Origin: Oscillatoriales cyanobacterium PMM_0008 | Lineage (GTDB): Bacteria; Cyanobacteriota; Cyanobacteriia; Cyanobacteriales; Aerosakkonemataceae | Direction of reading: 5' to 3' | NCBI GenBank assembly: GCA_949128025.1 | Contig: CASBRD010000239.1 | Location: forward strand, 1 to 38,033 | DNA: 38,033 bases | Shown: positions 5,750 to 17,944 of the stretch, piece by piece | How positions within the stretch are numbered: position 1 is the first letter of the stretch | Layout: each line of letters begins with the position of its first letter | The notes under the pieces: generated by a model | The model's input: only the letters and a program-made list of their open reading frames with translations | What the model was told of the DNA's origin: nothing | Databases searched by the model: none | Made by a program: the position numbers and the translations under genes

Positions 5750-5753
5750 TTTT

Positions 5754-5943
5754 GTCAGTGGTCAGTGGTCAGTGGTCAGTGGTCAGTGGTCAGTGGTCAG
5801 TGGTCAGTGGTCAGTGGTCAGTGGTCAGTGGTCAGTTGTCAGTGGTCAGTGGTCAGTTGTCAGTTGTCAGTTGTTAGTGGTCAGTTGTTAGTGGTCAGTT
5901 GTTAGTTGTTAGTGGTCAGTTGTCAGTTGTTAGTTGTTAGTTG
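5754..5943 (+). repeat. Heptamer tandem array (GTCAGTG)n, about 27 units
   Basis: Eleven perfect GTCAGTG units (5754-5830) pass into GTCAGTT, GTTAGTG and GTTAGTT variants, with the 7-base phase kept for about 190 bases. This is an STRR-type array. Its right end forms the last codons and stop of the S23-type gene, and its left end reaches the start of the alpha-E gene. Units of opposite orientation occur on the far side of the S23 gene. Confidence 0.95.
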
Positions 5944-8190: not shown

Positions 8191-11112
8191 ATGACACTGA
8201 CCCAAGTTTGGGGTGTACTGCTAATTTTCATCCTCTGTCCCCTCTTGGGAGGGTTACCCCTGATTGCGTGGATTGTTTACGCACTCAAAAGGCGTAAACT
8301 GCGAGAAATCGGCACTGGAAATATTGGGGTTCAAGCTGCTTTCTACCACGGCGGAACCCTTGCAGGTATCTTAGCGGTGCTATCGGAGGCGGGAAAAGGC
8401 ATTGCGGCTGTAATGCTGGCGCGTGCTTTTTTTCCAAGTGGTTCGGAGTGGGAAATAATTGCGCTGATTGCTTTGGTGATGGGGCGCTACTGGATGGGGA
8501 AAGGGGCTGGGACAACCAATGTTGTCTGGGGTTTTGTCGTTCACGATGTGTGGGTAGCGGGATTGGTGTTTTTGATTGGGGGAATTGGCTTTACAATTTT
8601 GCGTGAGCGCAATGCGGGACGAATCGCGGTTTTAATTCTGTTACCAACCATATTGGCTTGTCTGCATCCCCAGGATTCTGCGCGTATCTTTGCTGCGATC
8701 GCACTCTCTGTTTTAATTGGATGGATCTATAAAAAAATGCCCGATGATTTAGATCTTGCCCCAGAAGCAGGACAGCGCGATTCTCAAGCTATGTTTCGCT
8801 TTTTTCGAGGCGACAAGGCGATGATTTCTCTCAACCAACAGCTAGATGCTTCTAAAGTAGGACAAAAGGCTGCCACATTATCTCAGCTAAAACGTTGGGG
8901 CTACCCAGTACCAGATGGATGGGTTTTGCCGCCTGGAGATGACCCGACACCTTTGATTGAGTCTTTGCAACCTTCTCCAGCGTCGCCTTTGGTGGTGCGT
9001 TCTTCTGCGATAGGAGAAGATTCGGAATATGCTTCTGCGGCTGGTCAATATGAAACTATTTTAAATGTGACGAGCCGAGATGGTTTGCAACAAGCAATCC
9101 TTCGGTGTCAGGCTTCTTACGATCGATCGAGTGCTGTTGAATATCGACAACAGCGCCATCTCCCAGAGGCGGCAATGGCTGTATTGATTCAAAAACAAGT
9201 GTTTGGGGCATTTTCTGGAGTTGCCTTCAGCCGCGATCCTATGCTCGGATATGGAGATGCAGTTGCGATCGAAGCTTTACCGGGCGCTGCTTCGCGAATA
9301 GTTTCTGGTCAAGTCACACCAGAACAGTATCGCGTTGTTGTTAAAACACAAGAAAATCTCCCACTCTCCCCAACTCAAAACTCAGAACTATCAGTCGAGG
9401 GAAACGGAGATGTACCATTAACGTTAATTCGGCAAGTGGCTATTTTGGCGCGAGATTTGGAAGCGCGATATCATGGCATTCCGCAAGATATTGAGTGGAG
9501 TTATGATGGTGAAACGCTGTGGCTGTTGCAATCGCGCCCAATTACTACTTTATGGCCGATTTGGACAAGGAAGATAGCCGCCGAAGTAATTCCGGGTTTA
9601 ATTCGTCCTCTCACTTGGTCAATTAATCGTCCTCTGACTTGTGGTGTTTGGGGAGAAATCTTTACACTGGTGTTGGGAAAGCGATCGCATGGTTTAGATT
9701 TCAACGAAACTGCTACACTACACTACTCCCGTGCTTATTTCAACGCCTCCCTGTTGGGGCAAATCTTCCTTCGCATGGGACTACCGCCGGAAAGTCTGGA
9801 GTTTTTGACTCTTGGCGCGAAGTTTAGCAAACCACCGATGCGTTCTACTTTGCAAAATGTGCCGGGATTACTCAGATTGTTGCGCCGCGAATTGCGCTTG
9901 GAAAAAGATTTTCAAAGAGATTATCGACGCCACTTTGCCCCAGCTTTAGCTGAATTGAACCCCAGTGCAATATCTCTAAACTCTCCACAAACAATACTAG
10001 AAAGAATTAATTTCATCCTGGGATTACTCAAACGCACTACTTATTACAGCATTTTGGCACCTTTAAGTTTGGCGCTGCGACAGGGAATATTTAAAGTAAA
10101 AGATGAAGAACTTGATGCTGGTAAGACGCCGGAACTTGCGAGTTTGCGAAGTCTCCAGGAACTTGCTGCTGCTGCACGTCATTTGTTACCGCAACCAGAA
10201 AGAATCAATTCTTTAGAAGCACAAAAAGTTGCACCTAATATCTTTGCTACGTTAGCTGAAATTGCAGATGGACAGTCAATTTTACAGCAGTTCGATCGGT
10301 TTTTAGACATTTACGGCTATCTCAGCGATGTGGGAACCGATATTGCTGTTCCTACCTGGAAAGAAGATCCTAGCCCCGTGAGGGAACTGTTTGCACAATT
10401 TCTTCTGAATCTGCCTCCTGAATATGTACCGCCTGGAAAGACTAGCAAGAAGGCTCAGTCGGTACAGCGTCGCCTCGATCTGAAGGGTCGGGTAACTGAA
10501 GTTTATAGTAAGTTGCTGGCCGAGTTGCGTTGGAGTTTTGTGGCGATCGAGCAAATCTGGCTTGATTCGGGGGTGCTTCGCGAACTTGGAGATATCTTTT
10601 TTCTAGAATATTCCGAAATCGAACAAATTATAACACAAAACGATCGAGATTTACTGGAACGGTTGCCGCAGTTGATAGCAGAAAGGCGATCGCAACTGGA
10701 ACAACATCGACAATTAGATACAGTTCCACGAGTAATCTACGGTAATGCAGCATCTCCCACATCGAATATAGACGATCGCTTCCCCAGCCATCTGTGGCAA
10801 GGAATTGGTGCCAGTCCAGGACTTGCGGAGGGTAGAGTGAAGGTGCTGCGGAATTTGCAAGCTGTTGGCGAGATCGATCGCACTACGATATTAGTTGTAC
10901 CTTACACCGACTCTGGCTGGGCTCCCCTGTTGGCCCGTGCGGGTGGGATAATTGCGGAAGTGGGGGGCAGGTTATCTCATGGTGCGATCGTAGCACGCGA
11001 GTATGGTATTCCTGCCGTCATGGATATTCACGATGCGACTCGTTTGTTGCGCGATGGACAAAGAGTGCGAATTGATGGGAGTAGGGGAACCGTGGAGATT
11101 TTATTAAGTTAA
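8191..11112 (+). CDS. PlsY-like membrane domain fused to PPDK/PEP-synthase-like domains
   Basis: This 973-residue protein joins two unrelated parts. Residues 1 to about 185 are a multi-helix membrane domain resembling glycerol-3-phosphate acyltransferase PlsY. It has IGTGNIGVQAAF (compare GSGNIGATN), SEAGKGIAAVMLARA and GRYWMGKGAGTT, though the histidine of PlsY's GHxxP-type motif is not evident. From about residue 210 comes a pyruvate phosphate dikinase/PEP synthase-type ATP-grasp domain (SKVGQKAATLSQLKRWGYPV, LVVRSSAIGEDS, IEWSYDGETLWLLQSRPI). A long middle region follows. The C-terminal swivelling domain has the phosphohistidine motif GGRLSHGAIVAREYGIPAV. The nucleotide-binding and phosphohistidine domains look intact. 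The substrate is unknown. ATG 8191 is chosen because residues upstream are encoded by a C-rich repeat. An in-frame ATG at 8077 is the alternative. Confidence 0.85.
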   Translation: MTLTQVWGVLLIFILCPLLGGLPLIAWIVYALKRRKLREIGTGNIGVQAAFYHGGTLAGILAVLSEAGKGIAAVMLARAFFPSGSEWEIIALIALVMGRYWMGKGAGTTNVVWGFVVHDVWVAGLVFLIGGIGFTILRERNAGRIAVLILLPTILACLHPQDSARIFAAIALSVLIGWIYKKMPDDLDLAPEAGQRDSQAMFRFFRGDKAMISLNQQLDASKVGQKAATLSQLKRWGYPVPDGWVLPPGDDPTPLIESLQPSPASPLVVRSSAIGEDSEYASAAGQYETILNVTSRDGLQQAILRCQASYDRSSAVEYRQQRHLPEAAMAVLIQKQVFGAFSGVAFSRDPMLGYGDAVAIEALPGAASRIVSGQVTPEQYRVVVKTQENLPLSPTQNSELSVEGNGDVPLTLIRQVAILARDLEARYHGIPQDIEWSYDGETLWLLQSRPITTLWPIWTRKIAAEVIPGLIRPLTWSINRPLTCGVWGEIFTLVLGKRSHGLDFNETATLHYSRAYFNASLLGQIFLRMGLPPESLEFLTLGAKFSKPPMRSTLQNVPGLLRLLRRELRLEKDFQRDYRRHFAPALAELNPSAISLNSPQTILERINFILGLLKRTTYYSILAPLSLALRQGIFKVKDEELDAGKTPELASLRSLQELAAAARHLLPQPERINSLEAQKVAPNIFATLAEIADGQSILQQFDRFLDIYGYLSDVGTDIAVPTWKEDPSPVRELFAQFLLNLPPEYVPPGKTSKKAQSVQRRLDLKGRVTEVYSKLLAELRWSFVAIEQIWLDSGVLRELGDIFFLEYSEIEQIITQNDRDLLERLPQLIAERRSQLEQHRQLDTVPRVIYGNAASPTSNIDDRFPSHLWQGIGASPGLAEGRVKVLRNLQAVGEIDRTTILVVPYTDSGWAPLLARAGGIIAEVGGRLSHGAIVAREYGIPAVMDIHDATRLLRDGQRVRIDGSRGTVEILLS

Positions 11113-12124: not shown

Positions 12125-12142
12125 TTATACTTTTGCTTTCCG

Positions 12143-12244
12143 GGTATGTTGTTGCGCTTTAGCGCTCTTATACCAACTTGGATAAGAGCGCTAAAGCGCA
12201 ACAACGTACCTAATACCAGCCTCAATTATATAACTAGCAACTTG
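12143..12244. repeat. MITE-like palindromic element, copy b
   Basis: Arms at 12143-12171 and 12182-12210 pair over 29 bases with one mismatch. The right flank (ACCAGCCTCAATTATATAAC then TAGCAACTTG, to 12244) is nearly identical to that of copy h at 35.6 kb read on the other strand. This shows that both belong to a larger mobile unit. The outer left terminal repeat is degraded here. Confidence 0.85.
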
Positions 12245-12252
12245 CGTTATTA

Positions 12253-12274
12253 GCCAGGGAATTGATTCCCTGGC
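12253..12274. repeat. Short perfect hairpin
   Basis: GCCAGGGAAT (12253-12262) and ATTCCCTGGC (12265-12274) form a 10-bp stem with a 2-base centre, downstream of the NACHT-HEAT gene's stop. It may help end transcription, but no T-run follows. Confidence 0.6.
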
Positions 12275-12328: not shown

Positions 12329-13915
12329 TCAACTTCTTTTCTGCAATTCTTCCTTAGCAAATTTCCGCAACTCCTCATCGGTGTCATTTTCGTATCTGTC
12401 GCGCAACAACTCCAGCGTCAGGGGATTGTCGCGATGATGTTCTAGAATTGCTTCAAGAGCAGCTTGGCGGGGGTTATCTTGCAAATCAAACTCACGCTCA
12501 AAGGGATCGTTGATGGCGCATTTGTAGACAAACTCAAACATTCCAGGTTCTTTGCTCCAACATAGGAAGATCACACTCACTGTTGCATATCGCACCTGCG
12601 AATTAGCATCAGACTGGGCGCAGGATTGGAGTAGGGGTAGGGTTTGCGGGTCTTCTTTGTAATATTGGGCGATCGCATCCACTGCTGCACGTCGCACATC
12701 CGAATTCGGATCGGACTGAACCCAGGATTGAAGTAGGGGTAGGGTTTGCGGGTCTTCTTGGTAATATTGGGCGATCGCAATCACTGCTGCATTTCGCACA
12801 GTCCAATCCGGATCGGACTGAACCCAGGATTGGAGTAGGGGTAGGATTTGCGCGTCTTCTTTGTAATTTGAGGCGATCGCATTCACTGCTGTACGTCGCA
12901 CAGTCCAATCCGGATCGGACTGAACCCAGGATTGGAGTAGGGGTAGGGTTTGCGGGTCGTTTTTCCAGGTAGTTGCGATCGCCTGAATAACTTTTACAGC
13001 AGTTTCAAAATCATTTTCCCTAACTTTCTGAGTAGCATTTTTCAAAGCATCCAGCAGTAATGCAGCAGTTGATTTAATAGTAGAGATATTTCTCACTTCT
13101 ACCAGACATTCAGCCGCCAAAATTAGATTTCCAAACTTAAATTCATCCTTTTCACTCATCAAATACTCAATCATCTCCCCCGCTACTTTTTCTGCCAACA
13201 TCCCGCAAACTAACCGCAACACCTCATGCCAAGATTCATCCTGCCAATGTTTCCCAAACGCCTCCGTTTTTAACTCCTCCTCCGTCAAAATGCGCTGCTT
13301 TTCAAACTTCTCCACAAATTCCCAAGCACAGAAATATTCCAAAAACGTGCGGTGAACAAAACCGTAATACTCATCACCCAAATAACAGAGAATAAAATTA
13401 CGTTCGCGCAGTTGGTTAATCAGGATTTGCGCTTTCTCGCGAGGTTGGGAAAAATCCCGATCCTTCAGAAACTTGGTAATAATTTCCAGCAACTTGTCCC
13501 GACTGATGATATTTCCCTGAATTCCCTTTTCTCCCGACTGCATTTCGTATGCAATCTGCCGCAACATCGCCTGTTTTTCGGGACTTTCAATTGCATCAGG
13601 CGAAATTTGTAATTTCTTATGATCCACATCCCAAGCGTACAGCAACACCTTTGATGCTTCTTTATACAATTCCGCTCGATTTCTCGGCAATTCTTGGCGA
13701 CGGTTGAGAATTGCCATCATCGTCAGCAGCAGGGGATTTCCGGCGAGTTCGGCAATTGCTTTAGAATTAGCAATCGCATCTTGCAATCGCTTTTGTAAAA
13801 GTTCCTTGTCTGGATCTTTCTCCAGTGCCAAATCATGCCACTTTTGGAGAAATTCTGCAATTTGTTTCGGTTCCAAATCTTGCAGCGTGAAGTGACGAAA
13901 CTCGGCATTTCCCAA
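12329..13915 (-). CDS. NACHT-HEAT protein, C-terminal portion (after in-frame stop)
   Basis: This frame continues the NACHT gene directly. The codons around the break read Arg-Ile-Val-Gly-Tyr-Asn-Pro-TAA-Pro-Leu-Gly-Asn-Ala-Glu, with no frame change. It encodes the rest of the NTPase module (FRHFTLQDLEPKQIAEFLQK, AGNPLLLTMMAILNRRQELP, and the FVHRTFLEYFCAWEFVEKF helix typical of NACHT winged-helix regions). Four nearly identical 34-residue HEAT-like repeats follow, then a C-terminal tail, 528 residues in all. The first codon shown is a TTG just after the stop. No Shine-Dalgarno precedes it, so independent translation is doubtful. Most likely this is the stranded half of a recently disrupted gene, unless the stop is read through or is an assembly error. 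Confidence 0.7.
   Translation of the reverse strand: MGNAEFRHFTLQDLEPKQIAEFLQKWHDLALEKDPDKELLQKRLQDAIANSKAIAELAGNPLLLTMMAILNRRQELPRNRAELYKEASKVLLYAWDVDHKKLQISPDAIESPEKQAMLRQIAYEMQSGEKGIQGNIISRDKLLEIITKFLKDRDFSQPREKAQILINQLRERNFILCYLGDEYYGFVHRTFLEYFCAWEFVEKFEKQRILTEEELKTEAFGKHWQDESWHEVLRLVCGMLAEKVAGEMIEYLMSEKDEFKFGNLILAAECLVEVRNISTIKSTAALLLDALKNATQKVRENDFETAVKVIQAIATTWKNDPQTLPLLQSWVQSDPDWTVRRTAVNAIASNYKEDAQILPLLQSWVQSDPDWTVRNAAVIAIAQYYQEDPQTLPLLQSWVQSDPNSDVRRAAVDAIAQYYKEDPQTLPLLQSCAQSDANSQVRYATVSVIFLCWSKEPGMFEFVYKCAINDPFEREFDLQDNPRQAALEAILEHHRDNPLTLELLRDRYENDTDEELRKFAKEELQKRS
12551..12958 (-). repeat. Four 102-bp tandem repeats encoding HEAT-like units
   Basis: The block CAGGATTGGAGTAGGGG recurs at 12621, 12723, 12825 and 12927 with exact 102-base spacing, which is 34 codons per unit (LPLLQSWVQSDPDWTVR core). 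Most units also carry a HIP1 GCGATCGC. High DNA identity suggests recent unit duplication. Confidence 0.9.
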
Positions 13916-13918
13916 GGG

Positions 13919-15163
13919 TTACGGGTTATAACCGACGATACGGGAAGTCACCACCACTCGCGCTTTTTTGTATTCGTTGGTAAAGCTAATAATTTCGGTG
14001 ATTACCTCTTCTTGGCGATCGCGATTAATCACTTCATCCAACCCATCAAACAGCACCAATGCACCTTTATCTTTCAAATGTTCATCCAACTTTGCCTGAT
14101 TTAGCTTTTGGATGGTGCGAGTTCCCTGGTGGAAAAACTTCAAAAAGCTGGTAGGCGCGGCCCGATCGGGCCCATATCCCCGCAACTCTACTAATAATGG
14201 TAACTGTTCGGTTGGTTGCTCTGCCCACTGCAAAGCGAGATATTGTAATAAAGTGGATTTTCCCGACCCCGGATCGCCTAAAATTACTACATAACGATTA
14301 TTAGGATCTTTGAGAACTTCCAACACCGATCGAATCGCTTGCTGAAGATAACGTTCCCGATAGCGATGTAAATCTTCCTTAGTAAATTCTGCTTCAATTT
14401 TTCCTTCTCCGCATAACCTGCGCTGAATATCTTTCGGCAAATCGTAGCGCGATGGCGGTAATGCTTCCCGCACCATTTGGGGAATAAACATTTTCCACAA
14501 TTGCAGGCGATACTGATCGTTTGTCATATCAACAACGTTCAGTTTCAAGTAGCCGTAAAATTCGCGTAAGCTTTCCCGATATAATTCTAGATCGAGTTTA
14601 GGAATAATTCCTGCGATCGATTCCAATGCTTTCGTAGAAGCAGCAGTATTTTCGTTAATTGCTTCTAAATTTTCGGAATCCAAAATTTTACGCAATTCAT
14701 CCGAGTCTCGTCGAATTTCCACCACCTTTCGGCAATACCGTTTGACAATTAATTCCCAATCAAACCCAGCAGGTAACAAAGTTAAATTTAAGGTTATCCA
14801 AATCTTCTCTAATGCTTTAGCATCAATTATCTGAACATCTTTTTTAAACGCGCTTCCCAAGATTTCTCGCACCGATTTCTCTTTAAGAAACAAACTCAGC
14901 GATTTGCTATATTCTTTTGCTTCCTGTTTCTTCAAACCTTGCGCCTGTAACTCTTCTTGCACCAACTCCAAAAACCCTTTGATCGCTTTCTTGGTAGCTG
15001 TCGGCAGAATAATTCCCCGTCCCTTTTCATAAATTCCACCCGGTAAACTTTTGAAGAAATCTTTTAGCCAATCTTTCGCAGCATCTTTGGCGATTTCATC
15101 TATTTCTTTAAGAACCTGCTGGAAAACAAATCCAGTTAGCCAAGCAATCCCCACTTCTAACAT
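13919..15163 (-). CDS. NACHT-domain NTPase, N-terminal portion (truncated by in-frame TAA)
   Basis: The 414-residue product has a helical N-terminal region of about 270 residues, then a NACHT/STAND P-loop module. Walker A is GDPGSGKS (296-303), Walker B is LVLFDGLDE (369-377) and a sensor-like VVVTSRIVGY lies at the very end. It stops at TAA (13919-13921) in the middle of the NTPase domain; the next codon resumes the same domain in the same frame. STAND/NACHT proteins with C-terminal repeats sense ligands and oligomerise, and bacterial ones include antiphage proteins. Whether this one did is not known. I chose ATG 15163; a TTG frame start at 15259 lies within repeat sequence. It is flanked by MITE-like copies b and c. 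Confidence 0.75.
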   Translation of the reverse strand: MLEVGIAWLTGFVFQQVLKEIDEIAKDAAKDWLKDFFKSLPGGIYEKGRGIILPTATKKAIKGFLELVQEELQAQGLKKQEAKEYSKSLSLFLKEKSVREILGSAFKKDVQIIDAKALEKIWITLNLTLLPAGFDWELIVKRYCRKVVEIRRDSDELRKILDSENLEAINENTAASTKALESIAGIIPKLDLELYRESLREFYGYLKLNVVDMTNDQYRLQLWKMFIPQMVREALPPSRYDLPKDIQRRLCGEGKIEAEFTKEDLHRYRERYLQQAIRSVLEVLKDPNNRYVVILGDPGSGKSTLLQYLALQWAEQPTEQLPLLVELRGYGPDRAAPTSFLKFFHQGTRTIQKLNQAKLDEHLKDKGALVLFDGLDEVINRDRQEEVITEIISFTNEYKKARVVVTSRIVGYNP

Positions 15164-15256
15164 AATTTTGACTGTAATTTCACCAATTTGCTCACCAGTA
15201 TAGCTTTTAAAACTTGAGCCTGCCAGGGAAAAGCTTTTGGAGGATGTTATATAACC

Positions 15257-15329
15257 CAAGTTGCTAGTTAAAAAATCTTATAGCGGTTCTCAAGTAAGTG
15301 AGGTACGTAGTTGGGCTTTAGCCCTCTTA
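15257..15329. repeat. MITE-like element, degenerate copy c
   Basis: CAAGTTGCTAGTTA (15257-15270) matches the terminal repeat of copy h, and the arm GGTACGTAGTTGGGCTTTAG (15302-15321) continues into CCCTCTTA. The opposite arm is eroded (possibly AAGGGCTATAGC at about 15376). With copy b it brackets the NACHT-HEAT gene in inverted orientation. Confidence 0.65.
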
Positions 15330-15391
15330 ATTTAGTGGTTATATAAGCTGTCAGTCATACCTCATCTACCTGAGAAGGGCTATAGCATTGA

Positions 15392-17175: not shown

Positions 17176-17809
17176 ATGCAAGTAGCCCTAAAACAAATTA
17201 TCGTACAACCAGGACAGCAATTACTGCTGAACGACATTAGTTGGCAACAATTTGAAACAATTTTAGATGAGTTGGGAGAAAGTCGTGCTGCTAGACTTTC
17301 TTATAGTAACGGTTGGCTAGAAATTATGGTGCCACTACCAGAACACGAAAAGGATAAAGAAATTCTTGGCGATTTAGTAAAAATTTTGCTAGAGAACCTA
17401 GAAATCGATTTTGAAACATTGGGATCGACAACGTTTAAGAACGATCGCATGATTCAATCTGTGGAACCAGACGCTTGTTTTTATATTCGCAATTACGCGG
17501 CTGCGATCGGTAAAACAAGTTTGGACTTGACTGTCGATCCGCCTCCAGATTTAGCAATTGAAATTGATATTACTTCTTAATAATTATCAGTTGTTGGGAG
17601 TACCGGAACTGTGGCGCTACACAAGGCGAGGATTGCAAATTAATCTGCTGCAAGAAGGAAACTATGTTGAGTCGAATATGAGTCCGAATTTTCCCAATAT
17701 TCCTATTATTGAATTAGTTAATGAATATGTCGATCGCACTCAAAGAGAAGGCAGAAGTCAAGCCGTTAGAGCTTTTAAACTTTGGGTGAAGGAAAATTTG
17801 AGAAGATAA
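17176..17809 (+). pseudogene. Uma2-family endonuclease-like gene, frameshifted
   Basis: The reading frame from ATG 17176 (preceded by GAGGGAAAAG) gives a normal Uma2 protein. It has SRAARLSYSNGWLEIMVPLP, VEPDACFYI and PPPDLAIEIDITS, the acidic residues of a PD-(D/E)XK-like site, and then it stops at 17578-17580. The continuation, NNYQLLGVPELWRYTRRGLQ, follows directly in another frame and runs to 17809 with a normal family C-terminus. The residues expected between DITS and NNYQ (an RTHF-like stretch) are absent, so a small out-of-frame deletion of about 11 bases is the simplest cause. Uma2 proteins are very numerous in cyanobacteria and of unclear function. Confidence 0.8.
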
Positions 17810-17871: not shown

Positions 17872-17944
17872 TGGAGCTAAGCGGACTCGAACCGCTGACA
17901 TCTTCAATGCCATTGAAGCACTCTACCAACTGAGCTATAGCCCC
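17872..17944 (-). tRNA. tRNA-Ala (anticodon GGC)
   Basis: The reverse strand folds as a 73-base cloverleaf. The acceptor stem GGGGCTA pairs with TAGCTCC (one G-T). The D-arm has AGCTCAGTTGGTAGAG, the anticodon stem CTTCA/TGAAG encloses loop ATGGCAT with anticodon GGC, and the T-loop is GGTTCGAGTCC. The discriminator is A and CCA is not encoded. It reads alanine GCC/GCU codons. Confidence 0.97.

Follow-up and report, generated by a model that had tools for sequence, protein, structure and literature searches.

The window analysed here is a stretch of 38,033 nucleotides that forms contig 239 of the draft genome of Oscillatoriales cyanobacterium PMM_0008 (5.83 Mb, 469 contigs, 98.75% complete). 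On its minus strand lie two open reading frames, 13919-15259 and 12329-13915, which share a common frame and are separated by a TAA codon (13921-13919), followed by a single CCC codon and then by TTG. The ATG at 15163 is the start that agrees with relatives, and a stop at 12329 ends the gene, so that the frame read from this ATG comprises 943 sense codons plus two stops, one internal and one final. The original prediction, which left the strand unstated, had claimed that the two frames were in fact one interrupted gene, and this is shown by orthologues carrying uninterrupted frames across the site. The features of the locus are as follows.

12329..15163, minus strand: interrupted NNH2-NACHT-HEAT gene, from the open reading frames, Pfam and the orthologue alignment
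13919..15163, minus strand: 5' part (414 sense codons, then the stop), covering the N-terminal helical domain and the beginning of the NACHT NTPase
14528..15094, minus strand: NNH2 domain PF22734 (Pfam, 183.9 bits, cut-off 27)
13940..14296, minus strand: NACHT domain PF05729 (Pfam, 41 bits, cut-off 26.7)
13919..13921, minus strand: internal in-frame TAA, where the three nearest orthologues encode glutamate (alignment)
12329..13918, minus strand: 3' part, with the remaining NTPase, the following region and the HEAT array
13915-13913, minus strand: TTG, the first possible start of the 3' part
12566..12973, minus strand: four HEAT units of 34 residues (102 nt), from repeat analysis

By Pfam, NNH2 and the opening portion of NACHT lie ahead of the stop, and the HEAT repeats come after it. 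Positions 1-129 of the 167 in the NACHT profile (PF05729) are matched ahead of the stop, and the P-loop GDPGSGKST is visible in the sequence. The stop itself falls inside the NTPase, a few residues past a TSR motif. In the intact orthologue L036, NNH2, NACHT (PF05729, 51.9 bits) and HEAT all occur in one protein.

The closest orthologues occur in two genomes of the same genus (G001 and G002) and one of the same family (G008), where the frame runs from stop to stop without a break over 1064, 1032 and 1028 codons, respectively. Their first halves are 92-93% (G001), 92-93% (G002) and 88% (G008) identical to the window gene, and in G001 and G002, the two genomes in which gene order was compared, the gene holds the same position. 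The original prediction had called for a comparison of the codon in sister strains; all three orthologues encode glutamate there, and a stop occurs in none of the 43 alignment rows, other than that of the window gene, that span the site. These rows represent 41 distinct places, two having been fetched twice, and 44 of the 45 loci given covered the site. Homologues combining the same stop with a conserved second start, which had been named as evidence against the prediction, were sought in the 45 loci and were absent. Judged from this alignment, the stop is derived and private to the PMM_0008 genome within the sample, because the other 43 rows carry E, Q, D, H or K. The disabling lesion is thus of the kind by which a pseudogene is recognised, being missing from uninterrupted orthologues.

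Neighbouring genes are largely intact. Among the 21 window genes with a match in G001 (identity of 70% or more to an open reading frame 120 codons long or longer, less similar matches having been discarded before the count), 19 are uninterrupted, the exceptions being the NACHT gene and a split Uma2 gene; by equal criteria, 9 of 10 genes matched in G002 are uninterrupted, the exception again being the NACHT gene. The interruption is therefore not general noise of the window. Compared with G001, the Uma2 gene (a Pfam label) at 17431-17776 is broken into two frames near 17577.

Substitutions after the stop bear on its age. Between the stop and the HEAT array, the window-specific changes number 4 non-synonymous and 12 synonymous, whereas the two sister orthologues have 10 and 17 (11 and 17 if a codon bearing two changes is taken into the count), so that there is no non-synonymous excess over the sisters (Fisher p 0.51). 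The region from the stop to the HEAT array looks to be still under constraint in this alignment, which argues for a stop that is either recent or not real. In a simple model, so few changes in this region would be expected with a P of 0.015 had the stop been present for more than a fifth of the branch. In the approximately 75 codons past the array, the window has 8 non-synonymous and no synonymous changes of its own, compared with 9 and 3 in the two sisters, and these 8 changes could represent decay. When the post-array stretch is included (12 non-synonymous and 12 synonymous changes), P becomes about 0.20 at a fifth of the branch, 0.10 at 30% and 0.03 at half, and the age bound is loose. An old pseudogene is rejected on the small number of downstream non-synonymous changes, with a bound that is looser once the post-array stretch is counted.

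Ahead of the stop, 27 non-synonymous and 21 synonymous changes are found in the window, compared with 6 and 11 for the two sisters; faster change in this part was considered and is not significant, with p 0.17 against the sisters and 0.08 against all three relatives (40 and 61 changes). Nine window-specific non-synonymous changes fall in a single block of 50 codons (alignment columns 380-429), which is possibly a recombined patch and which lies around what we take to be the second NTPase motif. A templated mutation was also considered, since the stop and an adjacent synonymous change resemble the preceding six bases. It fails a 7-base requirement, at which 3 of 83 close pairs of changes appear templated, none of them at the stop and with a chance level of about 0.03 per pair.

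Constraint downstream of the stop is also what an intact gene would present, and the stop could have come from faulty sequencing or assembly, or be a consensus base from a mixed population, the organism's own gene being whole. A single substitution in a draft of 469 contigs is compatible with such an origin. Set against it are the 19 of 21 matched window genes that are uninterrupted relative to G001, as well as the lack of any second contig found with an alternative version, and an error is rather unlikely.

Interruption is not confined to the PMM_0008 copy. Matches at E <= 1e-40 occur in 96 of the 388 genomes of the class, its own genome included. Outside that genome, 84 rows score at least 480 bits, and 82 were fetched and checked, the other two lying on contig ends. 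A core stop or frameshift is present in seven of the 82 (L113, L135, L137, L147, L151, L155 and L158), and in-frame stops are found in three. Thirteen loci had been flagged, and six (L084, L100, L110, L138, L143 and L157) were set aside because their stop lies ahead of the start: each still has an ATG 289-321 codons upstream of the P-loop, the distance being 297 codons in intact orthologues. Five doubtful loci whose N-terminal part is missing in the alignment (L136, L144, L150, L156 and L161) were counted as unbroken; L144 has seven stops in the genome-search match and none in the aligned core. Also doubtful and counted as unbroken was L134, with two aligned blocks 1.2 kb apart. Interruptions are present as well in L162-L168, fetched as suspicious, and in L016 and L020, all of which lie outside the count of seven in 82. 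At L166 (G050:C126:1-8000), two adjacent copies of the family are both interrupted, and in L158 the stop sits at the edge of a proline-rich stretch inserted within the gene. Break positions are scattered over the family, and in the alignment this speaks against a conserved split.

As a control, the neighbouring protein of 973 residues (8191-11109) was searched, giving 150 rows among the matches listed, or 149 without its own genome. Eight rows were flagged for stops, all eight beyond the last aligned residue, 971, leaving internal stops in 0 of 149 among the matches listed. This differs from the three in-frame stops in 82 with p 0.04 and from the seven interruptions of any kind with p 0.0006, in a control that is imperfectly matched, since frameshifted copies score lower and may be missing among the matches listed. 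The control is also more widely kept, in 233 of 388 genomes versus 96 of 388 at different E-value limits. The family thus seems to break often. A literature search on NNH2, broken defence genes and cyanobacterial NACHT pseudogenes, made by titles and abstract openings, found nothing relevant.

The C-terminal arrays of the family are variable as well. The window gene has four HEAT units of 34 residues, and the orthologues of G001, G002 and G008 have seven, six and six; self-similarity at a lag of 102 bases is found in 42 of 86 loci. Unit-to-unit comparison was tried in 25 loci picked for strong self-similarity (L038, L039, L040, L073 and others), with L074 skipped and the window array excluded. 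Averaged over the resulting 24 arrays, amino-acid difference between units peaks at positions 22, 23, 24, 27 and 31, where 0.49-0.66 of unit pairs differ and synonymous difference is 0.00-0.04; the next most variable positions are 1, 12, 16 and 21 (0.34-0.41). Mean identity between units is 0.75-0.93 in nucleotides and 0.63-0.91 in amino acids, with 0.66 for the amino acids of the window array, such that the units are similar and not near-identical. When the HEAT array was searched as DNA against four genomes, nothing outside the gene was matched.

A structure was predicted for the orthologue of Argonema antarcticum from an alignment of two rows, with a mean pLDDT of 49; the HEAT part, the only confident one (mostly 76-89), was used and the remainder was not. 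Solved structures gave matches to HEAT-like repeats only. In the confident part, the predicted helices span unit positions 9-19 and 23-36, so that in the model the five variable positions fall where the second helix begins and along one of its sides. We take this side to be the inner, ligand-facing side of the HEAT fold.

Several known systems resemble this architecture. The bacterial NACHT (bNACHT) anti-phage proteins likewise have a NACHT NTPase at their centre, preceded by an N-terminal domain and followed by a putative sensor at the C-terminus (PMC12169576, PMC10907252). The window gene differs in having NNH2 at its N-terminus where bNACHT25 has a nuclease, and in being a broken copy. Curated defence models place even the intact L036 far below their cut-offs (NCBIfam EruA 54.5 bits, cut-off 1000; DS8 37.2, cut-off 790), and PADLOC gives weak partial matches only; by curated model score, the gene thus falls outside the characterised anti-phage NACHT systems. 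In multicellular bacteria, NACHT sensors diversified by DGRs also carry a variable C-terminal sensor; variation there is in a C-terminal lectin-type domain, whereas here it extends across internal HEAT units (PMC10907252).

The HNWD/HET NLR genes of the fungus Podospora anserina offer another parallel. They combine a STAND NTPase with similar C-terminal repeats, repeat numbers that change between alleles or orthologues, focused repeat variation, and loss of function (PMC2873952, PMC4986451). Focused variation is described there for WD, ANK and TPR repeats (PMC4986451, PMC2873952), and high internal conservation is defined by units more than 85% identical (PMC4986451). The arrays here share the focusing of inter-unit variation on few positions. 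They mostly fall below the fungal identity level, since 0.85 is reached by 4 of 26 arrays, and they consist of HEAT rather than WD, ANK or TPR units, in a cyanobacterial host. Moreover, loss here is by a nonsense change, whereas most HNWD mutants had lost repeats. Among the papers listed by the literature searches, no report of focused unit variation in bacterial NACHT-HEAT genes was seen, which is a weak negative.

One could conceive that null and intact alleles coexist in the species through balancing selection, much as in the fungal incompatibility genes, and that the stop is one state of an on/off polymorphism. The frequent interruption in the family would suit such a polymorphism, and HEAT variation focused on few positions fits a gene for an arms race or for non-self recognition; the sample, however, is one genome of the species, and the proposal is decidedly unlikely. 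A broader version holds that this NLR family of filamentous cyanobacteria evolves like the fungal incompatibility genes, its units being exchanged and renumbered, the five-position stripe diversified and null alleles recurrent, with the window stop as a segregating off-allele in a non-self or defence polymorphism. As a whole, this picture is speculative and must be regarded as doubtful.

Another possibility is that the two halves are made separately, through reinitiation at the TTG two codons past the stop, and jointly form a working NTPase. The in-frame TTG directly behind the stop and the retained downstream constraint would allow it, but that TTG is a leucine codon common to the three intact orthologues and the breaks of other homologues follow no conserved split, so that such a two-part protein is highly improbable. 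The frame is likewise unchanged past the TAA, as programmed readthrough or recoding would require, but the stop is shared by none of the other 43 rows, the surrounding RNA has no better fold than shuffled sequence does (z -0.34) and the site has no Rfam match at gathering score, where the whole window yields nothing but one tRNA; this mechanism is scarcely credible. Phase variation is not supported, as the difference is a substitution, with no tandem, direct or inverted repeat at the site (no tandem repeats in 12329-15259 except the HEAT array; no direct or inverted repeats of at least 12 bases in 13700-14150).

Given the intact orthologues, the stop private to the sampled genome and the little downstream decay, the locus is probably best explained by a recent nonsense mutation, a null allele of an NLR-like gene that is vertically inherited and in other respects well preserved. 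From the options that the original prediction had listed, recent pseudogene or strain-specific loss therefore stands on these same grounds, and phase variation and readthrough are not supported. In the intact protein, the HEAT solenoid would sense a ligand, upon which the NACHT NTPase would oligomerise and the N-terminal NNH2 helical domain would relay the signal, probably to a defence or cell-death response. The PMM_0008 frame ends after 414 codons, and the product from the ATG lacks the remaining NTPase and all of the HEAT units; such a truncated product would amount to a null allele, in a reading based on one draft genome of 469 contigs. The loss may be tolerated or even favoured, as sensors of this kind could be costly or self-harmful when idle, and the gene may already have been weakened by its short HEAT array (four units versus six to seven) when the stop appeared. 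A search of the PMM_0008 genome turned up no further copy, and four other NACHT genes are listed in it, with open frames of 776-787 codons.

Taken as a single event, the stop is ordinary: most likely an accessory immune-type gene has newly acquired a null allele. The stop is also a pointer to a family with intact, diversified and broken copies in related cyanobacteria, and this family, with its variable HEAT arrays and frequent breakage, is more interesting than the stop itself. Comparing natural alleles of such a family could be a way to study what bacterial NLR-like sensors cost and what they are used for.

Elsewhere in the window, short dispersed repeats occur at 5751-5943, 12133-12257 and 15279-15384, with many matches in both same-genus genomes; two of the three flank the NACHT gene, one on each side. 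A tRNA gene lies at 17872-17944 on the minus strand.
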